A stretch of DNA of 43,610 nt from Williamsia herbipolensis. Lineage in GTDB: Bacteria; Actinomycetota; Actinomycetes; Mycobacteriales; Mycobacteriaceae. This document shows positions 22,311 through 31,240 of this stretch, piece by piece (position 1 is the stretch's first letter; the number at the start of each line of letters is the position of its first letter). The position numbers and the translations under genes were made by a program. The stretch covers positions 1 through 43,610 of the forward strand of contig NZ_JXYP01000033.1 in NCBI RefSeq assembly GCF_000964005.1, written 5' to 3'. The notes under the pieces were generated by a model. It did no database searches, was not told where the DNA came from, and saw only the letters and a program-made list of their open reading frames with translations.

Positions 22311-23303
22311 TCACCGGGCGCTGTGGACGGCGGCGCGCATGCCACCGCGGCGTTTCGCGTCGTACATCAAGCGGTCGGCCTCGGTGAGGGCATGGGCGAG
22401 TGCGAACCTGTCGGCGCCCCGGAATTCGAGCGGGACGACCCCCGCACTCAGCGTGACCGACGGCCCGTCGCGTCCGACCGTGGTCAGCGGAAGTCGACCG
22501 CCCACGTCGGTGAGCGGCGTACCGCGAGAGGCGGGCATCATCAGCGTGAACTCCTCGCCGCCCGTGCGCGCCACCACTCCTCGTCCCGACGTGGCGAATC
22601 GCCGCAGTGTCATGGCGACCTCGCGGATCACCCGGTCGCCCACCACGTGGCAGTGACTGTCGTTGACCGACTTGAAGTCGTCGATGTCGAGGACCGCGAG
22701 CACCTGTGGATCGATGCCGCCGGATCGGGCCTGTTCGAGCAGGCGCTGATGCGCGTGATCGAGGCCGGCCCGGTTCAGCAGCCCCGTGAGCGGGTCGATG
22801 CGTGACCGTGCGGCGTAGACCAGCAATCGGGTCCACACGATCCGTGCACCCCACGGCGTGAGGATGGAGACCGCGAGAACGTACGCAGCCAGGTGGAGGA
22901 AAAGCCACCTGCTCGCCATCAGCAGCGTGAACTGTGCGCCCAGGACCGCGAGCAGTGCGCAGCCCACCAGACCGTTGCGGGGATCGGGGATGGCGAGCAC
23001 GACCAGTGCCGTGCCGATCTCCGCGAAGACGCCGAACAGCGTGCAGGGCAGTCGGTTCAGCATGCGGTCGGTCGCGGCCCACAGCACTCCGGTCGCGACG
23101 GCCAACACCGCGGACAGTCCCACGAGCACGCGAAGCGGTGTCGAGGTCGGTCCGATGGAGGTGTCCAGCGCGACCCACGCCGCGATGATCCCGAAGTTGG
23201 CCGATCCGAATCCCACACTCCGGCGCAGCACCCTGCCCGTGGCCGTTCCCGCGATGAGGTCGGACAGGTCCGGAACGCGATCGTCGGTGGTTCCAGGGGT
23301 CAC
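22311..23303 (-). CDS. membrane-bound diguanylate cyclase (GGDEF)
   Basis: This protein is 330 residues from the GTG at 23303. The N-terminal half has about five membrane helices (33-48, 57-77, 88-106, 112-130, 133-150). The catalytic domain starts with DPLTGLLNR (170-178) and carries DIDDFKSVNDSHCHVVGD and the active-site motif GGEEF (248-252). It should make c-di-GMP from two GTP. The inhibitory I-site (RxxD five residues before GGEEF) is absent (SGRG), so product inhibition by that route is not expected. The frame is open upstream, but the residues there are low-complexity and the GTG fits the start of the membrane part. Confidence 0.88.
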   Translation of the reverse strand: MTPGTTDDRVPDLSDLIAGTATGRVLRRSVGFGSANFGIIAAWVALDTSIGPTSTPLRVLVGLSAVLAVATGVLWAATDRMLNRLPCTLFGVFAEIGTALVVLAIPDPRNGLVGCALLAVLGAQFTLLMASRWLFLHLAAYVLAVSILTPWGARIVWTRLLVYAARSRIDPLTGLLNRAGLDHAHQRLLEQARSGGIDPQVLAVLDIDDFKSVNDSHCHVVGDRVIREVAMTLRRFATSGRGVVARTGGEEFTLMMPASRGTPLTDVGGRLPLTTVGRDGPSVTLSAGVVPLEFRGADRFALAHALTEADRLMYDAKRRGGMRAAVHSAR

Positions 23304-23436
23304 GGCGGTCCGGGTTCTCGGTGGCGCGTACTCGTAGCGGGGGCCAAAGATAACAAAGCCCGCACGTCTGCCGACACCGAATCGGCGAGACCGCGACCGG
23401 TCGATCAGACGGCCGTGATCTCGCGGTGCGCCTCGC

Positions 23437-23928
23437 TCAGCCGCCCCACACCGAACGGGCACCGGCGTCGCCGATGCGGTACACCCAGACGACCGCGCCG
23501 ACGGCGACCACCACGAGGAGGACGGCAAGTATTCCGGTGATGACGGTCTGCGAGCGCCCCCGCGTGAGGGCCGGAACGCGACCGGCGACCCAGTCGTTCT
23601 CGCGGAACCATGCACTGGTCTGGACCCACCAGAGCACGGCGAGCACGAACAGTGGGGCCGCGAAGTAAATCATCTGGTCGCCGAGTTCGGTGTGCCGCTC
23701 CAACACCGCGCTCGGCGGGGTCTTCTTCTCCAACGACTCGCCCGCGCTGGTCGCGATGGGCGTCGCGGCCAGCGCGATCGCCGCGACGATCGGTGTGACG
23801 ATGCCGAGCTTGCGTCGGGCCGCAGGCCACACGACGCCGAGGACGGCGAACACCGCGGCCAAGGGGACCATCACCACGACGATGTGCACGACGAGCGGAT
23901 GTAGGGGTAACCCGTTGACGCTGTCCAT
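23437..23928 (-). CDS. DUF2231-family membrane protein
   Basis: This 163-residue protein has four membrane helices. The start NGLPLHPLVVHIVVVMVPLAAVFAVL is the family hallmark, with His residues in helix 1; some DUF2231 proteins are thought to bind haem or take part in redox processes. The loop after helix 2 is polar (GESLEKKTPPSAVLERHTELGDQ). It sits between two GGDEF genes on the same strand, 48 bases after the PAS-GGDEF gene, so cotranscription is possible. Confidence 0.8.
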   Translation of the reverse strand: MDSVNGLPLHPLVVHIVVVMVPLAAVFAVLGVVWPAARRKLGIVTPIVAAIALAATPIATSAGESLEKKTPPSAVLERHTELGDQMIYFAAPLFVLAVLWWVQTSAWFRENDWVAGRVPALTRGRSQTVITGILAVLLVVVAVGAVVWVYRIGDAGARSVWGG

Positions 23929-23976
23929 GAGCGGCGACGGTAGCGACGCCCCGTTGAGAGGACGCTGAGAACGAAC

Positions 23977-25212
23977 CTACGAAGCGCCGGATTTGTCGGC
24001 GTACATGTGCTTGTCCGCCGCGCGCAACAGGGCGCTGTGGTCGCCGTCGGCCGACCAACTCGACCCGACCGACGCCGTGACGGTGATGGGGCCCGGCACG
24101 GAGGGAAGGCGATAGACACCGGTGACTGCGGCTTTGAGTGACGATCGATACCGCTCGATGTCGTCGTTCGAAGTCGCCGACCGAACCAGCACCACGAACT
24201 CGTCGCCGCCGATCCGACACGCCAGATCTGCGGGGTCGATGCCGTCGGCGATACGCCGCGCCACCGCGACGAGGAGTTCGTCGCCGGCGCCGTGTCCGTG
24301 GGTGTCGTTGACACGCTTGAACCCGTCGAGATCGAGGAACAGCAGGCCGAGCGGACCGGTTGTGTGGCTGTCGATCTCGGTCATGAGCAGGTGTCGGTTA
24401 CCCAGGTCCGTCAGTGCGTCGGTGACGGCGAGCCGCGCGAGTTCGTTCTCCGCCACTTTACGGCGGGTGATGTCCTGTATCTGCGCGATGATGATGCCGT
24501 CGGTGCCGGTGCCGCGCACGACGACGGCGTTGCGTTGTACCCACACCACGCTGCCGTCCTTGCGGAGATAGCGCTTCTCGGACTGGATGTGGGTTCGGCT
24601 GCCGTCGAGCAACTGGGCCAGGTGACGATCGGCGGCCGCCACGTCGTCGGGATGGGTGATGTCGCGAAACGACAGCTCCTGCAGTTCTTCTGCGGTGTAC
24701 CCGGTGAGTTCGCAGAGGGCCTGGTTCACCTGTAGCCATCGACCGTCGGTGCCGACCACCGCCTGGCCGATCGCGGCGTGGTGCATCGACGTCTCGAATA
24801 GCGAGATGGCCTCGTCGCGCTCGCGTTCGGCTTCCACTCGCCGCGAGACCTCCGCGACGTGTACGAAGAAGCCCCGCACCCGGCCGTCGACGATCTCGGG
24901 AACGTAGGTGGCCTGGGTGTGCCGCACCGTACCGTGCACGTCGATCAGCGTCCGGTCGAACTGCTGCGGTGTGCCGGCGAGTGCGGCCTCGATGTACAGC
25001 CGGTTGAGCTCGTACACCTCGGGCCCCAGGGCGTCACGGATGTGCATCCCGCGGGCCTTCTCGGGGGTCAGGCCGAAGTAGTCGACGTAGGCCTGGTTCG
25101 CAGCGAGGTTGCGTAGGTCCGCGTCCCAGTACCCGATCAACGCGGGGACGTTGTCGATGACCCGCCGCAGGATGTCGGCGTCGGAACCGGTCTCGTCCAC
25201 CTGCACCCCCAC
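23977..25212 (-). CDS. PAS-PAS-GGDEF diguanylate cyclase
   Basis: This soluble 411-residue protein has two PAS domains (about 14-125 with LIGYWDADLRNLAANQAY and about 138-252 with MHHAAIGQAVVGTDGRWLQVNQALCELTGY). A helical linker and a GGDEF domain (about 262-411, DALTDLGNR, DLDGFKRVNDTHGHGAGD) follow. The active motif GGDEF is at 335-339. The I-site would be at 326-329 and reads DPAD, so its Arg is lost. The PAS domains suggest control by a small ligand or redox state; no heme or flavin signature is obvious. The GTG at 25212 is one of three close GTG choices. Confidence 0.9.
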   Translation of the reverse strand: MGVQVDETGSDADILRRVIDNVPALIGYWDADLRNLAANQAYVDYFGLTPEKARGMHIRDALGPEVYELNRLYIEAALAGTPQQFDRTLIDVHGTVRHTQATYVPEIVDGRVRGFFVHVAEVSRRVEAERERDEAISLFETSMHHAAIGQAVVGTDGRWLQVNQALCELTGYTAEELQELSFRDITHPDDVAAADRHLAQLLDGSRTHIQSEKRYLRKDGSVVWVQRNAVVVRGTGTDGIIIAQIQDITRRKVAENELARLAVTDALTDLGNRHLLMTEIDSHTTGPLGLLFLDLDGFKRVNDTHGHGAGDELLVAVARRIADGIDPADLACRIGGDEFVVLVRSATSNDDIERYRSSLKAAVTGVYRLPSVPGPITVTASVGSSWSADGDHSALLRAADKHMYADKSGAS

Positions 25213-25280: not shown

Positions 25281-26279
25281 TCACTCGTGCGTGATCACGA
25301 CCTTGCCGCCGCGCGCTCGGCCGGCGTCGACATAGGCGATCGCGTCGACGGTGTCGTCGAAGGAGAAGGTCGTGTCCACCACCGGGCGCAGATGTCCCGC
25401 CTCGTAGAGGGCGGCCAGTGTCGCGAGCGTGGCCCCGTCGGCGTGCATGTAGAAGAACGCGTAGGTGACGCCGTGCTTCTTCGCGGCCGCCCGTACCTTC
25501 CTGCTGAGCAACGACAGCACGAACTCGAACGGCTTGGGCGCACCGAGCTGTTTCGCGAAGCCCGCGTCGGGTGGTCCGGTCACCCCGAGGGCGAGTCCGC
25601 CCGGCTTCAGGACGGTCAGCGTTCTCATGAGGTTGTCGCCGCCGACGGCGTCGATCGCCAGGTCGTAGCCGGAGAGCACCTCGGCGAAGTCGTCCCTGCG
25701 GTAGTCGACGACATCGTCGGCACCCAGGGCCGTGACGAGATCGACCGAACTCGTCCCGGCGGTGGTCGCAACGCGCGCCCCGAGGTAGTTCGCGAGCTGG
25801 ATGACGGTGGACCCCAGGCCGCCCGCGCCGGCGTGCACCAAGACCTTCGACCCGGTTCCGACGCGACCTTTGTCGACGAGCATCTGCCATGCCGCGAGAG
25901 CCACGAGGGGTACTGCCGCTGCCTCGGCGAACGACAGGTTCGACGGTTTCAGGGCGACGTCGCGGTGATCGATCGCAATGTGTTCGGCGAACGTGCCGAT
26001 CCGCAGATCGCGAGGGCGCGAGAAGATCTCGTCGCCGACGGCGAAGCCGGTCACGGCGCTGCCGACCTCGGTCACGGTTCCGGCGACGTCGTGTCCCAGG
26101 ATCGTGGGCATCCGGTACTTCAGCAGCTGCTTGAACTCGCCGGTGCGGATGAGCGTGTCGAGCGGGTTGACGCTCGCCGCAGCCACTTTCACCAGGACGT
26201 CGTGTGGTCCCACAGTGGGCGTGGGGATCTCGGCCGCGTGGACCGGTCCCTTGTACTCGTCGATCACGAACGCCTTCAC
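25281..26279 (-). CDS. NADP-dependent quinone-type oxidoreductase (zinc-less MDR)
   Basis: This 332-residue medium-chain oxidoreductase has a GroES-like domain (1-125; ASVNPLDTLIRTG, LGHDVAGTVTEVG) and a Rossmann domain with HAGAGGLGSTVIQLA (AGAGGLG at 150-156) and GADDVVDYRRDDF. The catalytic Cys/His zinc ligands of alcohol dehydrogenases are absent, so it fits quinone or enone reductases. The start GTG overlaps the TGA of the upstream hydrolase (GTGA). It is the third gene of the SDR/hydrolase/oxidoreductase operon, which is preceded by repeated TetR-type operators. Confidence 0.9.
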   Translation of the reverse strand: MKAFVIDEYKGPVHAAEIPTPTVGPHDVLVKVAAASVNPLDTLIRTGEFKQLLKYRMPTILGHDVAGTVTEVGSAVTGFAVGDEIFSRPRDLRIGTFAEHIAIDHRDVALKPSNLSFAEAAAVPLVALAAWQMLVDKGRVGTGSKVLVHAGAGGLGSTVIQLANYLGARVATTAGTSSVDLVTALGADDVVDYRRDDFAEVLSGYDLAIDAVGGDNLMRTLTVLKPGGLALGVTGPPDAGFAKQLGAPKPFEFVLSLLSRKVRAAAKKHGVTYAFFYMHADGATLATLAALYEAGHLRPVVDTTFSFDDTVDAIAYVDAGRARGGKVVITHE

Positions 26280-27157
26280 CGGTCGTGGTCCTCTCGCGCA
26301 GAAGTGGTCAGGTGGCTCGAGACGGAGTCGCCGAGGAAGTCCAGCACCTCGGGGACGAATTCGTCGTGATACTGGAAGATGCCGCCGTGACCGGAGCGGG
26401 GATAGATGATGACTCGCGCGTCGGGGATGCGCTCGGCGAGTTCCACCGAGTGCTCACTGGCGACCATCACATCGTTGTCTCCGTTCGCGACGAGTGCGGG
26501 TTGGGTGATCACCGACAGATCGTCGGGGGTTGCCCGGCCGCCGGCCACGATCGCTCGCAACTGTGCGAGCCGCGCCTGCAGGGAGATCGTCCGGACGCGA
26601 TCGCCACGTCGCTCGGCGAGCCGGCCGAAATATGCCTCGGCCGCCTTCTTTCCCTCGGCGGTCCGCGGGAAGAACAAGAAGTGCCTGGGGTCCTTCCGAC
26701 TCAGCGCTGCCTTCAGGTAGGCGCCACCGACGATGCCGGCCATCTTGTCGATACCGCCTCCGCCTCGCGGCCCGGTACCCGTCAGCACGATCCGCCGGAC
26801 GAGTTCCGGGGCCTGCAGCGCCACGACCTGCGCCACGCCGCCACCGAGTGAGAACCCGAACAGGTCGACCTGTGTGAGACCGAGCGCGCGGATGAACGCG
26901 ATCGCATCGGCTGCCATCTGGTCGATGGTGGCGGGGACTCTTCCGCCGGATCCGCCCACACCGCGGTTGTCGAAGGCGATCACGTGGTGTGCCGAGGCGA
27001 GTCCGTCGATGATGCGGGGATCCCAGTCGTCGAGGGTGGCGGTGAAGTGGTGGAGGAACACGACCGGGACTCCGCCGGTCGGGCCGAGTTCGCGGTAGGC
27101 GAAGCGCACGCCGTGGACGTCGATGGTCACTGTGGGGGTGTCGGTCCAGGTGGTCAT
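26276..27157 (-). CDS. alpha/beta hydrolase 1 of the TetR-controlled operon
   Basis: This 293-residue alpha/beta hydrolase shows VVFLHHFTATLDDWDPR (32-48), FDNRGVGGSGG (62-72), the nucleophile elbow GFSLGGG with Ser103, a late Asp in NGDNDVMV and the catalytic His in SGHGGIFQ. It is clearly paralogous to the hydrolase at 28801-29691: the phrases FDNRGVG, HHVIAFDN and GHGGIFQ recur in the same order. The ATG overlaps the stop of the SDR gene upstream and its own stop overlaps the next GTG, so the three genes are translationally coupled. The substrate is unknown; ester, lactone or C-C bond hydrolysis all fit. Confidence 0.9.
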   Translation of the reverse strand: MTTWTDTPTVTIDVHGVRFAYRELGPTGGVPVVFLHHFTATLDDWDPRIIDGLASAHHVIAFDNRGVGGSGGRVPATIDQMAADAIAFIRALGLTQVDLFGFSLGGGVAQVVALQAPELVRRIVLTGTGPRGGGGIDKMAGIVGGAYLKAALSRKDPRHFLFFPRTAEGKKAAEAYFGRLAERRGDRVRTISLQARLAQLRAIVAGGRATPDDLSVITQPALVANGDNDVMVASEHSVELAERIPDARVIIYPRSGHGGIFQYHDEFVPEVLDFLGDSVSSHLTTSAREDHDR

Positions 27158-27876
27158 GAGGTTGCTCCGGCGGGGGTGGGGAGATCGGTGTAGAGCGATT
27201 CGATGGGGCCGCTCAACGCGGATTTCACAGAGGTGGTGAGGTCATCGCCGATGACCTCGTACCCACCCTCGGCGAGGGTGTCGTACACCGCGCCGACGAG
27301 GTCCTCGGGCCGCAGTTTCGGCCCGTGGGCGCCGGCCGCCATCGGCGTGTCGACATACCCCATGTGCACTCCGACCACGTGGACGCCATCGGGAGCGAGT
27401 TCGAGGCGTAGCGCGTTGGTCGCCGACCAGAGCGCGGCCTTCGAGGCGCTGTAGACGCCGCCGAACGCGCTCCAGCTGGCCACCGAATGCACGTCGACGA
27501 GGGCGGCGTTCTCCGCAGCTCGCAGGATCGGCGCGAAGGCCTTGGCCAGCAGGACCGGCGCGAAGAAGTTGGTCTCCATGGTCGATCGCAGGTCGGTCTC
27601 GTCGAGCTCGACGTAGCTGGCGGTGGGCGGCGTGACTCCCGCGTTGTTGATCAGGACGGACACGTCGGACGCGGCCTCAGCGGCAGCGGTCCGCGACGCG
27701 GCGTCGGTGACATCCAGCGCCAGAGGGACCACGCGGTCGTCGCTCCATTCGCGCGGAGTCCGCGCGGCCGCGTAGACCTTGCGCGCACCGCGTGCGAGGG
27801 CCTGGTGCACGAACTGCTCGCCGAGGCCGCCGTTGGCGCCGGTGATGAGCACGACCGCATGGGTCAGGTTTGTCAT
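27154..27876 (-). CDS. short-chain dehydrogenase/reductase, first gene of the operon
   Basis: This 240-residue classical SDR has the nucleotide motif TGANGGLG (13-20), NNAG (77-80), Ser in VDVHSVASWSAF and the catalytic YSASK (about 142-146). It probably oxidises or reduces a hydroxyl/keto group with NAD(P)H. The start ATG follows AGAAGAGG. On the minus strand a TACAGT -10 lies between two copies of the 18-bp operator (27909-27926 and 27957-27974). It is divergent from the TetR gene at 28054. Confidence 0.92.
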   Translation of the reverse strand: MTNLTHAVVLITGANGGLGEQFVHQALARGARKVYAAARTPREWSDDRVVPLALDVTDAASRTAAAEAASDVSVLINNAGVTPPTASYVELDETDLRSTMETNFFAPVLLAKAFAPILRAAENAALVDVHSVASWSAFGGVYSASKAALWSATNALRLELAPDGVHVVGVHMGYVDTPMAAGAHGPKLRPEDLVGAVYDTLAEGGYEVIGDDLTTSVKSALSGPIESLYTDLPTPAGATS

Positions 27877-27908
27877 GGTGAAGACCTCTTCTGGGGGTGA
27901 CCCCCGGT

Positions 27909-27926
27909 GTAAACAGATCGGTGTAC
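27909..27926. promoter_or_regulatory. operator copy 1 (SDR operon promoter)
   Basis: GTAAACAGATCGGTGTAC lies 33-50 bases before the SDR start, downstream of its -10 box (TACAGT). It is one of five copies of a near-palindrome whose best form is the copy at 29756. Confidence 0.8.
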
Positions 27927-27956
27927 TCGCTCACTGTAGATGACGGAGGCGACGAA

Positions 27957-27974
27957 GTACACCGATCTGTTTAT
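27957..27974. promoter_or_regulatory. operator copy 2 (SDR operon promoter, inverted)
   Basis: This is the reverse complement of copy 1 with one change at its edge. It begins 48 bases after copy 1, upstream of the SDR -10 box. Confidence 0.8.
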
Positions 27975-27990
27975 CGACCGGGTCGACCGC

Positions 27991-28008
27991 GTAAACAGGT
28001 CGGTGTAC
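27991..28008. promoter_or_regulatory. operator copy 3 (TetR gene side)
   Basis: GTAAACAGGTCGGTGTAC differs from copy 1 by one base and lies 46-63 bases before the TetR ATG. It overlaps a possible -10 of that gene, which suggests autoregulation. Confidence 0.8.
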
Positions 28009-28053
28009 CTTGAGTGAGACTGGCGAAGACCACGAATGAACCGGGTGAGAACC

Positions 28054-28632
28054 ATGACTTCTACGGCAACGGAAACGGGCGCCGTCCCCAGTGCCTCGTG
28101 GGGCGTGCGCGACAAGATCCTTGCCGCCGCGATGGGGCTCTTCTACGTAGAGGGGATCAACGCCACGGGCGTCGACCTGGTCGCGGAGAGGGCGGGTGTG
28201 TCGAAAAGGACTCTCTACAAATACTTTCCGAGCAAGGTCAATCTCGTCGAGCAGTATCTCACCAGCATGTTCGACATGTTCCTCGCGATGCGCGAAGCGG
28301 ATACGGCCGGTCCCCGAGAGCAGATCATGTCGTTGTTCACGGTCCCCGTCGCCGACGGGGGCCTCATGCGCGGATGTCCGTTTCACAATGCGGCGGTGGA
28401 GGCTGCGGCCGTGATGCCCGAGGTGGCGGAGTTCGTGCATCGACAGAAGGAGGCCTTCGCGACCGCGATCGTCGACCTCTGTCGTGATCTCGGTGTCGAC
28501 GACGCCGATCTGTTGGGCCGACGTATCGCCCTGGTCTACGAGGGCGCCGCCGCGCTGTCGACGTCTCTCGATGCGGTGGAGCCGTGGGCGCGCGCGCGGG
28601 CGATGGTGGAGATGCTCCTCGACCTGGAGTGA
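28054..28632 (+). CDS. TetR-family repressor, probable regulator of both hydrolase units
   Basis: This 192-residue TetR protein has the helix-turn-helix RDKILAAAMGLFYVEGINATGVDLVAERAGVSKRTLYKYFPSKVNLVEQYL (about 19-69). The C-terminal domain contains GCPFHNAAVEAAAV, a phrase of TetR proteins that respond to small acids or aldehydes. The ATG at 28054 follows GGTGAGA. The operator copies at 27909-28008 lie between it and the divergent SDR operon, and two further copies precede the hydrolase at 28801-29691. The inducer is unknown. Confidence 0.9.
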   Translation: MTSTATETGAVPSASWGVRDKILAAAMGLFYVEGINATGVDLVAERAGVSKRTLYKYFPSKVNLVEQYLTSMFDMFLAMREADTAGPREQIMSLFTVPVADGGLMRGCPFHNAAVEAAAVMPEVAEFVHRQKEAFATAIVDLCRDLGVDDADLLGRRIALVYEGAAALSTSLDAVEPWARARAMVEMLLDLE

Positions 28633-28634
28633 CA

Positions 28635-28756
28635 GGCCAGGCGGCGATCGGTGTGAGCGCGAGCAGCACCTCCGACAATCCGATCACGTGGTCGCCGTCA
28701 GCCATGATGCGGATGTCGCAGGCCCGGGAGAGTTCCGCGCCTGCGTGGCTTTCTGG
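28635..28756 (-). pseudogene. decayed enoyl-CoA hydratase (crotonase) fragment
   Basis: On the minus strand, about 40 codons read HAGAELSRACDIRIMADGDH and then VIGLSEVLLALTP. This matches the central part of crotonases (GGGxELALACDxRxAxxxAxFxLPEVxLGLxP). A stop codon (TGA at 28757-28759) precedes it, and the sequence after it loses resemblance. It fills the space between the TetR gene and the second hydrolase and has no start of its own. It is a remnant and cannot make a working enzyme. Confidence 0.6.
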
Positions 28757-28800
28757 TCATGACTTCTTTCTGTTCGAAGAGGGATGGCGGCCTTGCTCGG

Positions 28801-29691
28801 TCAGGAGTCGAGGAACTCGACCGCGGTCGCCACGAACTGGCGGTGTTCCTGGAAGATCCCGCCGTGTCCCGCGTCGGGATAGATCCGGAGTGTCGCGTTG
28901 GGGAGGCGATGCGCGAGATCGTGGGAGTTGCTGGTCGGCACCATCCGGTCGTCGTCGCCGTTGGCCACCAGAACGGGGTGCGTGATGGTGCCGAGGTCGG
29001 CTGGCGTCTGCGTGCCCCACGCGTGAATCGCGCGCAGCTGGGTGCGGAAGGTCGTCACCGTGACGGCCTTGTCCCGGTTCTCGGTGCGTTCCTTCAGCCG
29101 CGTGATGAACGCCTTCGCCTGGCTCTTTCCGTTCGCGGTACGGGTGAAGAACAGGTTCTGCTTGGGGTCCTTGCCCGTCAGCACGGCTGTGATCGAGTCG
29201 CTGTAGGACACCCGTGTCACCTTGTCGATCCCCGCGCCCCCGGCGGGGCCGGTCCCGGCGAGGATGACCCGCCGGATCAGTTCCGGTCGCTCTGCGACGA
29301 TCACCTGGGCGATGAACCCGCCCATCGAGAAGCCCAGAAGATCGACCTCGGTGAGTCCCATCGCGTCGATGAACGCGATCGCGTCGGCCGCCATGGCCTC
29401 GATGGTGTCGGGAGTGGTTCCCCCGGATGCCCCGACGCCGCGGTTGTCGAACGCGATGACGTGGTGGCCGGCGGCGATGCCGTCGATGACGCGCGGGTCC
29501 CAGTTGTCCAGGTTCGCGGCGAGGTGATGCAGGAACACCACCGGAACGCCGCCGGGACGCCCGTAGCTGCGGTACGCGAACTCGGTGTCGTCGACAGCGA
29601 TCGTGCGGGTCGGGACCACGCGCCACGATGATCCCGGGCTGGGCGCAGACGGTGATCCGGAGCGGTTGTTCTGGGATGCGTGGCCGTTCAT
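28801..29691 (-). CDS. alpha/beta hydrolase 2, paralogue under the same operators
   Basis: This protein is 296 residues from the ATG at 29691, which follows GAGGAGA. After a polar N-terminal tail (1-25) the hydrolase core shows VVFLHHLAANLDNWDPR (51-67), FDNRGVGASGG (81-91), the nucleophile elbow GFSMGGF with Ser122, NGDDDRMV and the catalytic His in AGHGGIFQ. It is paralogous to the operon hydrolase at 26276-27157. Two copies of the TetR operator flank its TACCTT -10 (29731-29736) with the same 48-base spacing as in the SDR operon promoter. It is transcribed towards the TetR gene and stops 168 bases from it. Confidence 0.9.
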   Translation of the reverse strand: MNGHASQNNRSGSPSAPSPGSSWRVVPTRTIAVDDTEFAYRSYGRPGGVPVVFLHHLAANLDNWDPRVIDGIAAGHHVIAFDNRGVGASGGTTPDTIEAMAADAIAFIDAMGLTEVDLLGFSMGGFIAQVIVAERPELIRRVILAGTGPAGGAGIDKVTRVSYSDSITAVLTGKDPKQNLFFTRTANGKSQAKAFITRLKERTENRDKAVTVTTFRTQLRAIHAWGTQTPADLGTITHPVLVANGDDDRMVPTSNSHDLAHRLPNATLRIYPDAGHGGIFQEHRQFVATAVEFLDS

Positions 29692-29707
29692 GGCGGGTCT
29701 CCTCGAG

Positions 29708-29725
29708 TAAACAGATCGGTGTACC
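29708..29725. promoter_or_regulatory. operator copy 4 (hydrolase 2 promoter)
   Basis: GTAAACAGATCGGTGTAC, identical to copy 1, lies 17-34 bases before the hydrolase 2 ATG and downstream of its -10 box. Confidence 0.8.
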
Positions 29726-29755
29726 CGCCGAAGGTAGCGCATCGATCGCCGCGTG

Positions 29756-29773
29756 TAAACAGATCTGTGTACC
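29756..29773. promoter_or_regulatory. operator copy 5 (hydrolase 2 promoter)
   Basis: GTAAACAGATCTGTGTAC is the most symmetric copy, a perfect palindrome apart from one pair. It begins 48 bases after copy 4, in the -35 region of hydrolase 2. Confidence 0.8.
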
Positions 29774-29812
29774 GCGGGCTCGTGTCAGTGATGAGCCACA
29801 GGAACCGCGTCG

Positions 29813-31240
29813 CTAACTCGTGCCGAGGTAGATCATCGCGGTGTAGAGGATCACGGCGGGTACGAGCACCGCCCAGCCGGTGATCAGGATGTTCCGGACG
29901 TTCGCCGACCGGCACAGTCCCATCACCCCGAGCATGTTCACGTTGGGGAGGGGGCCGTAGGTGTCGGCCTTCGACGAGAAGAGCAGCACCACCACCCAGA
30001 CCCCCGCGCCGATCCCGGCTGCGGCGGCCAGCTCGCCGAACACCCTGTCCACCAACACGACCTGCGCAGCCGAGGCGCCGGGGATGCCGACCCAACCGAT
30101 GAGGGCGACGGTCATCGCGAGCAGGAACGGTGACAGGTGCGCGATGTCGGTGCCGTAGGAGCCGAGCACCACCGAGAACGGGTTGATGCGGGCGATCGCG
30201 GTGAACAGCACGGCGAGGAGAAAGAACAGGACGAACAGCCACGCGAGGGCGGACGCACCCCGGAACGCACTCGCGGCGAACGCCTTCGGCGACATGCCGC
30301 CCCCGAGAGCGGTGGCCACGGCCATGAGCGGTAGCGCAATGATCGGCAACACGATGCCCGCCGTGGTGAGGGTCGCGACGACGAGGACAGCGCCGAGGGT
30401 GACGGTGAACGCGACCGCGGCCCGGCGCGCGCGACGGTCGGTCGGGGCGTCGTCGTCGGTGGCCGTCGCCACGAGTTCCTCGGGTGCGTAGTGGTCGTCG
30501 AGGTCGCGGGTACGGCGCTGCATCCACGGCACCACCAGCATCCCGACGACGAGGGACACCGCGGCGAGCGGGCCGCCGCCGTGAAGCAGATAGTGGAGAT
30601 AGCCGATGTCGGCCGCGCCCATGATCGCGATGTTGCCCGACGCGAACGGAGCGACCGCGAAACCTGCACAGCCGCCGATGAATATCGCCGACGCGGTGGC
30701 CGAGCGAGTCAGCCCGGCCCGCGCCGCGATCGGCAGCAGCACCGGCACCGCGACCGCGAGTGCGCCGGCGAGCGTCCCCAGCGCGCCCACCAGGAGCAGG
30801 CACGTCACCATGATCCCCGCCGCCACGGCGGTGGTGTTCGAGGTGCCGGCGAACCGCATGGCGGAGCCGACGATGCTCGCCGCTGCGCCGGTCGCGCGGA
30901 GGATCTCCGCGAGCGCCCCGCCGAGCAGGATCACGACACCGATGACCGTCACCTGATCGGTGGCGGCCTCGCCGGCCATGTCGAGCGCCATCCGAGCCCC
31001 GGGCAGGAGGATCAGCAGTCCCGAGACGACCGAGACGACGGTCGCCCGCAGGATCGGCATCCCCAGTGCGGCGAGGAGTCCGTAGAGCACGATCGGTCCG
31101 AACCCCCACAGCGTGGATCTCTCGACGGTCACCCCGACGACCAGACAGACGATCAGGCCCGTCGTCGCCACAAGGGTGGCAACAGGGGGCATTCGTCGCA
31201 GTTCAGACCGCGGTGTCGAGCCGGTGAGGGTGTTCTGCAC
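29813..31240 (-). CDS. ion-transporter-superfamily permease (GntP/NhaC/DcuC-like)
   Basis: This protein is 475 residues from the GTG at 31240 (ATG 31192 is an alternative) with about 11-12 membrane helices. The pattern AGALGTLAGALAVAVPVLLPIA, FAVAPFASGNIAIMGAADIGY and the late segment ADTYGPLPNVNMLGVMGL fits large H+ or Na+ symporters/antiporters of the GntP, NhaC or DcuC kind. The substrate cannot be told; a carboxylate or sugar acid is likely. A charged loop (RRTRDLDDHYAPEEL) lies mid-protein. It is upstream of and in line with hydrolase 2 but separated by two operator copies. A -10-like TATCGT just before the GTG suggests its own promoter. Confidence 0.7.
   Translation of the reverse strand: MQNTLTGSTPRSELRRMPPVATLVATTGLIVCLVVGVTVERSTLWGFGPIVLYGLLAALGMPILRATVVSVVSGLLILLPGARMALDMAGEAATDQVTVIGVVILLGGALAEILRATGAAASIVGSAMRFAGTSNTTAVAAGIMVTCLLLVGALGTLAGALAVAVPVLLPIAARAGLTRSATASAIFIGGCAGFAVAPFASGNIAIMGAADIGYLHYLLHGGGPLAAVSLVVGMLVVPWMQRRTRDLDDHYAPEELVATATDDDAPTDRRARRAAVAFTVTLGAVLVVATLTTAGIVLPIIALPLMAVATALGGGMSPKAFAASAFRGASALAWLFVLFFLLAVLFTAIARINPFSVVLGSYGTDIAHLSPFLLAMTVALIGWVGIPGASAAQVVLVDRVFGELAAAAGIGAGVWVVVLLFSSKADTYGPLPNVNMLGVMGLCRSANVRNILITGWAVLVPAVILYTAMIYLGTS

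Follow-up and report, generated by a model that had tools for sequence, protein, structure and literature searches.

Five copies of one 18-bp operator probably place two enzyme units of Williamsia herbipolensis under a single local TetR-family repressor

In Escherichia coli, the TetR repressor NemR, which carries a sensing cysteine (Cys106), controls the reductase NemA. The Williamsia cluster described here resembles that system, in a comparison by description, in that OYE genes lie near its relatives, but differs from it in that the cluster itself holds no OYE gene and that a sensor role for Cys108 of its repressor is only putative. In Mycobacterium tuberculosis, the Rv0078 (EthR2)-Rv0077c system employs one 21-bp operator with two staggered dimers (PMC6016246). 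Likeness to that system lies in a TetR-family repressor gene placed beside an alpha/beta hydrolase gene and in an operator situated over transcription starts. The arrangement differs in that Rv0078 is divergent from the hydrolase gene whereas tetR of our locus is divergent from a short-chain dehydrogenase/reductase gene (SDR), although in six of the seven other named Williamsia loci tetR is divergent from the hydrolase gene HYD2, as in the EthR2 type. A further difference is that the Williamsia operators are 18 bp long, are paired 46-56 bp apart, occur at several promoters and are associated with SDR and MDR enzymes. The published description of predicted TetR operators in mycobacteria reports divergent TetR genes, palindromic sites upstream and targets that are mostly enzymes (PMC4482099), and in these described features the Williamsia regulon is like the mycobacterial set.

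Judged from its sequence, the locus is a real local TetR regulon, well conserved and with neatly laid-out promoters, of a kind that is well known. This particular Williamsia regulon was not found in the open-licence literature searched, its kind being ordinary local gene control; among the matches listed, searches with operator-like strings gave no title on bacterial gene regulation, and word searches for such a regulon (open-licence papers, without supplements) gave nothing fitting.

The window, by which we mean the whole 43,610-nt stretch of DNA from the soil bacterium W. herbipolensis that was analysed, contains the following genes:

25281..26279, minus strand: MDR, medium-chain oxidoreductase, quinone/enone reductase-like
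26276..27157, minus strand: HYD1, alpha/beta hydrolase
27154..27876, minus strand: SDR, short-chain dehydrogenase/reductase, above the cut-off of NCBIfam NF006119
28054..28632, plus strand: tetR, 192-aa repressor with a TetR_N domain; residues 106-116 read RGCPFHNAAVE in every aligned protein
28801..29691, minus strand: HYD2, alpha/beta hydrolase, convergent with tetR; start taken as the ATG at 29691

SDR, HYD1 and MDR overlap by four bases each and therefore look like one operon. HYD2 shares 57% identity with HYD1 over 272 aa, and its start was set at the ATG at 29691, to which a ribosome-binding sequence (GAGGAG) and the aligned relatives point; a longer frame (to 29742) begins beyond operator 4 and reads through it. 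In the TetR protein, PF00440 (TetR_N; 59.2 bits, cut-off 24) was the sole Pfam domain found, PF21993 (the LmrA/YxaF-like TetR C-terminal domain) not being detected by the Pfam scan. Eighteen NCBIfam families match it and none reaches its cut-off, the best being MftR (43.1 bits vs 224.9); the protein falls below every curated cut-off of the named NCBIfam TetR equivalogs (RutR, KstR, MftR, AcuR and others).

Five palindromic sites overlap promoter-like sequences of tetR and of the neighbouring genes, as they do for local TetR-family repressors:

27909..27926, plus strand: operator 1, GTAAACAGATCGGTGTAC; covers the position at which the SDR-HYD1-MDR transcript is expected to start, 6 nt 3' of its -10
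27957..27974, minus strand: operator 2, ATAAACAGATCGGTGTAC; inverted, overlaps the -35 region of the SDR promoter
27991..28008, plus strand: operator 3, GTAAACAGGTCGGTGTAC; upstream of tetR, its final TAC opening a -10-like TACCTT (28006-28011)
29707..29724, plus strand: operator 4, GTAAACAGATCGGTGTAC; covers the expected start of the HYD2 transcript
29755..29772, plus strand: operator 5, GTAAACAGATCTGTGTAC; its minus-strand edge TTTAC plus one base gives a -35 TTTACA (29759-29754)

An earlier note on this DNA had reported five copies with a common core, and a pattern scan of the window found AAACAGRTCKGTGTAC as an exact match in all five. Its starts for the first three copies (27909, 27957 and 27991) are correct, while those for the last two (29708 and 29756) are one base too high; its description of the best copy as palindromic but for one pair applies to operator 5. 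At up to three mismatches the window yields nine matches, namely the five copies, three of the same sites on the opposite strand and one unrelated match inside MDR (25538), against a mean of 0.38 and a maximum of 2 in 100 dinucleotide shuffles. A genome-wide scan for the motif, one of the checks that the earlier note had put forward, left no copy besides the five at one mismatch or fewer in 4.74 Mb (4,744,957 bases): the five alone match exactly, and no place matches with one mismatch. With two mismatches there are two places, one being the reverse-strand reading of operator 5 and one, at C49:117162, falling within the coding sequence of an apparent other TetR gene. Exactly three mismatches add 76 further matches, two of them known sites on the other strand, so that the genome total at three or fewer comes to 83, compared with 16 for a backwards control pattern.

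We consider it highly likely that the TetR protein represses both enzyme units through these five operators, most of them arranged in promoter-fused pairs, that the units stem from one split ancestral operon and that a small molecule brings about release. The sites, their exclusivity at no more than one mismatch, their conservation, the promoter-like geometry, the covariation and the gene order were computed; our inferences concern binding and repression by TetR, the nature of the inducer and of the enzyme substrates, and which way the rearrangement ran. According to this model, the local repressor would bind the five 18-bp imperfect palindromes, whose half-site is about GTA[A/C]AC[A/C]GA. At each enzyme promoter, one dimer would occupy the operator that supplies the -35 with its outer end and a second dimer would lie over the start, so that RNA polymerase would be excluded from both sides of the -10; TetR thus probably blocks the polymerase at the -35 operator and at the start operator alike. 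The fifth site, at the -10 of tetR, would allow autoregulation. A small molecule, possibly sensed at a pocket around the invariant RGCPFHN, would release TetR, whereupon two alpha/beta hydrolases, the SDR and a quinone/enone-type reductase would be switched on together. All four enzyme genes would once have formed a single operon, with tetR now between HYD2 and SDR and an operator pair at each half, so that neither half would have left the control of the repressor. If an inducer is identified, the components may be of use as an orthogonal repressor-operator pair.

To assess conservation, 40 loci with TetR relatives were taken from named genomes, of which loci L015-L049, less two whose upstream DNA is missing (L038 and L041), made up with the window a footprint set of 34; weak or partial matches (L050-L054) were left out. 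A site at no more than three mismatches lies within -260 to +30 of tetR in all 34 loci (33 relatives and the window), and in 30 of them at no more than two. Control tiles from the same loci bear a site in 26 of 1320 cases at the looser and 14 of 1320 at the stricter threshold, and some of these tiles hold operators that precede other enzyme genes. Two or more sites are found upstream of tetR in 26 of the 34 loci and one site alone in the remaining 8. The relatives contain 13 further operator pairs (three mismatches or fewer) away from the tetR start, most of which precede HYD, SDR, MDR, SDR2 or DUF4345 genes.

At family level, a pattern scan at one mismatch or fewer detected the motif in 17 of 151 genomes, with one match for the backwards control. 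Nineteen of the resulting 30 motif loci (overlapping places counted apart) adjoin a TetR at least 60% identical to that of the window, 7, in as many genomes, stand beside a TetR only 25-40% identical, and 2 (L056 and L080) have no detected TetR. The remaining two of the 30 represent a single tetR-less HYD2-SDR place (L064; genome G064, C6:49289), which bears an exact operator pair and has no tetR within about 1.5 kb, the genome holding two tetR copies elsewhere; this configuration argues for action in trans. As the motif also occurs beside TetR proteins of 25-40% identity, and at two places beside none detected, a wider TetR group appears to share it. The regulon offers a clean operator code for a TetR group that is found patchily in the family. 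An alignment query, with scoring limited to 16 candidates in any one genome, returned a TetR match at E 1e-40 in 18 of 201 genomes, and the plasmid collection gave no TetR relative at E 1e-20. Among 14 divergent TetR relatives found by tblastn (33-44% identical), 7 have no upstream site at three mismatches or fewer, including one of 44% identity (L096).

Covariation was examined in an alignment of 33 TetR proteins, comprising that of the window, 31 from L015-L049 (without L017, L020, L038 and L041) and one more from L028, which has two copies. Cys108, within RGCPFHN, is invariant in all 33. Williamsia and Antrihabitans have TLYKYF or TLYKHF as recognition helix, while the other proteins have TLYQHF or near variants of it. 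An A occupies base 7 in 21 of 32 half-sites associated with a TLY-K helix vs 2 of 90 associated with TLY-Q or TLY-R (p-value 1.3e-13, which is overstated since the helix groups are clades of related sequences), and the direction of this covariation is that which direct contact predicts. The constant presence of a site upstream of tetR (34/34 loci), together with the covariation of base 7 and recognition helix, indicates that the five operators are very probably the sites of the TetR encoded at 28054-28632; the link between motif and TetR drawn in the earlier note is borne out by the same evidence.

Two other readings of the repeats were weighed against this assignment. Some other regulator might bind them, tetR being merely one of its targets; the occurrence of the motif beside more distant TetR proteins is in keeping with this idea, as is the second TetR, related to one of LmrA/YxaF type, that several mycobacterial clusters hold, but the covariation of base 7 with the helix type of the window's own TetR and the constant operator position upstream of tetR itself make it improbable. 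That the sites are a mobile or chance repeat with no regulatory role deserves almost no credence, since nothing beyond copy number was found to speak for it while none of the 100 shuffles reached the observed count and, from genus to genus, the register between site and -10-like box stays fixed; we rejected it on the shuffles, the genome exclusivity and the fixed -10 register.

Comparison of the sites with nearby promoter-like sequence, and with relatives, led to the following promoter assignments, both inferred from pattern and relatives:

27933..27961, minus strand: SDR promoter core; -35 TGTACT at 27961-27956 (3/6 to TTGACA), -10 TACAGT at 27938-27933
29731..29759, minus strand: HYD2 promoter core; -35 TTTACA at 29759-29754, -10 TACCTT at 29736-29731

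A generic sigma-70 scan of 27700-29900 found no promoter, and the calls in the window rest on comparison with the relatives. The test covered 27 operator pairs, made up of the two in the window and, from 25 relative loci, the pair that precedes tetR; some of the 27 are near copies of one another. Exactly one TAnnnT lies between the operators in every pair, at 18 nt from the upstream operator in 24 pairs and 19 nt in 3, whereas its distance to the downstream operator is variable, with a mean of 8.9 and an sd of 3.2. With shuffled spacers (2000 for each pair), a TAnnnT fell at 17-19 nt in 0.75 of 27 pairs on average and in 5 at most. Together with the next base, the five bases at the end of the upstream operator spell TTTACA or something close to it, 17-18 nt ahead of the -10; agreement with the -35 sequence TTGACA reaches at least 4/6 in 26 of the 27 pairs, a figure largely set by the operator letters and not separate evidence. 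From the fixed distance of 18-19 nt and the TTTACA-like end, the upstream operator looks fused to the -35, with the other operator over the start, and this tight operator/promoter geometry would predict transcription starts almost to the base. The SDR promoter of the window is the weakest case, its upstream operator being inverted and its -35 the poorest (3/6).

In 9 of the 27 pairs (six paired Williamsia relatives, Antrihabitans, L044 and L046, the window not among them), the same operator also ends in an opposite-strand TAnnnT, which is likely the -10 of tetR. In the window, operator 3 (GTGTAC followed by CTT) seems to take over this role and is a probable autoregulation site of tetR. The earlier note had described both enzyme promoters as sharing one plan, two operators 48 bp apart (start to start) around the -10. 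This is so for both window promoters, but the 48-bp spacing is not a conserved feature: it ranges over 46-56 bp in relatives, and what is fixed is the 18-19 nt from operator to -10. Cooperative phasing of two dimers as the cause of the 48-bp spacing is thought unlikely, because the spacing varies over 46-56 bp, a range of almost one helical turn, and the distance from operator to -10 is the only one held.

Gene order suggests how two units came to share one repressor. W. limnetica (L016) carries HYD2-SDR-HYD1-MDR as one uninterrupted run divergent from tetR, and the other six named Williamsia loci carry subsets of this run with its order kept. HYD2 adjoins tetR in six of the seven, as well as in the same-genus loci L010-L013, among which L010 and L012 repeat L015 and L018. 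The window keeps the order HYD2, SDR, HYD1, MDR on the minus strand, with tetR between the first and second genes and an operator pair of its own at each half. The two window units, which the earlier note had taken to be separate, look like the halves of one ancestral hydrolase-SDR-hydrolase-reductase operon, split in that tetR now separates its first gene from the other three; that note's proposal of one local repressor for both is probable, each half having its own operator pair. The simplest account would be that tetR and a copy of the operator-bearing promoter moved into the operon; alternatively, HYD2 may have moved over tetR. The regulon would thus show how an operon can split without escaping its repressor. 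A relic of an enoyl-CoA hydratase gene lies between tetR and HYD2 (28649-28741, minus strand; 31 residues, PF00378 at only E 0.01); it is 61% identical to the ECH of the Mycolicibacterium setense cluster and apparently marks a past rearrangement between tetR and HYD2.

Across L015-L049, 27 of 35 loci have at least one of HYD1/HYD2, SDR, MDR and SDR2 near tetR at 45% identity or more; the 8 without the main enzymes nearby are L038, L040, L041, L044 and L046-L049, L038 and L041 being truncated loci. Relatives add OYE, second SDR, DUF4345, amidase and enoyl-CoA hydratase genes, so that the gene set varies. A second TetR gene recurs beside the regulon in mycobacteria (L030 6531-7214, L024 8505-9065, L034 7505-8074 and others), and the neighbour TetR in L030 contains PF21993 (LmrA/YxaF type).

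The chemistry common to the enzyme set appears to be reduction of C=C and C=O bonds together with ester hydrolysis. The closest solved relative of MDR is 'Ripening-induced protein', which we take to be the strawberry enone reductase; that of HYD2 is the alpha/beta hydrolase 4pw0, named without function. Both hydrolases show weak similarity to enol-lactonases (best NCBIfam 83-92 bits vs cut-offs of at least 255). Unsaturated-carbonyl or ester chemistry suits the enzymes and their neighbours better than breakdown of a cyclic ketone does, and defence against xenobiotics or electrophiles seems to us somewhat likelier than growth on a ketone. As an elaboration of the preferred explanation, TetR may sense a reactive carbonyl via Cys108, with MDR and SDR (and OYE in relatives) reducing it and the hydrolases clearing esters. 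The invariance of Cys108, the relationship of MDR to 'Ripening-induced protein', the OYE-type genes near the regulon in several relatives and the alkene reductase enzyme set found with other TetR types in one Agrobacterium and one Streptomyces plasmid record are consistent with such a defence, but the window cluster has no OYE, a cysteine position by itself is weak support, and Corynebacterium glutamicum CssR has cysteines without redox activity (PMC8176726), so that we hold it as a possibility short of an even chance. The earlier note had instead favoured breakdown of an ester, lactone or cyclic ketone. A genuine catabolic route by which the cell grows on an ester, lactone or ketone would agree with the enol-lactonase similarity of the two hydrolases, with the enoyl-CoA hydratase and amidase neighbours in a mycobacterial cluster and with the hydratase relic at 28649-28741; yet the four presumably operator-controlled window enzymes include no monooxygenase, acyl-CoA ligase or thiolase, no transporter gene has an operator and the gene set differs among relatives, which leaves this reading unlikely. 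The ester or lactone part of the proposal may hold, given the two hydrolases. Its cyclic-ketone part is not supported, as no monooxygenase, the mark of Baeyer-Villiger or lactone clusters, was present among the 6 window proteins and the 20 neighbour proteins from four relative loci.

Only tentatively, and with rather less than even confidence, can these strands be drawn together into a previously undescribed, mycobacterial-type regulon whose operator is built into the core promoter. One end of the palindrome would serve as the -35 of the enzyme operon, and its opposite end would, in several Williamsia, open the opposite-strand -10 of tetR, one 18-bp site thereby gating two divergent promoters. 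In the window, this dual-use site would have been resolved into separate operators after tetR split the operon, and Cys108 would sense an electrophilic carbonyl as the signal.

HYD2-like genes were found in 74 plasmid records, 5 of which the comparison covered. Records from Agrobacterium, Streptomyces, Rhodococcus opacus 1CP and Mesorhizobium have similar enzymes beside TetR genes of other types, with an alkene reductase present in the Agrobacterium and Streptomyces records, while that of R. opacus DSM 44186 has only hydrolases, TetR and DUF4345 in common. The TetR proteins of these records lack RGCPFHN, and the best upstream match to the operator has 6-8 mismatches; a similar enzyme set accordingly recurs under different repressors. 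On the Agrobacterium plasmid pEHA105 (L111 1316-6833), SDR, alkene reductase, NADP oxidoreductase, alpha/beta hydrolase and aldo/keto reductase genes accompany a different TetR, close to a virE3 gene.

The surroundings of the window cluster include an apparent membrane protein gene, identified by eye, just upstream of HYD2 and on the same strand (29813 to about 31194, minus strand); some 40 bp separate its end from operator 5, upstream of which it lies, no operator belongs to it, and its 589-aa frame matched no Pfam or NCBIfam family at E 0.001. With this gene beside HYD2, the breakdown that the earlier note took to be uptake-independent may or may not be so. Just beyond MDR, two adjoining frames (22311-25212, minus strand) look, by eye, diguanylate cyclase-like (GGDEF type).
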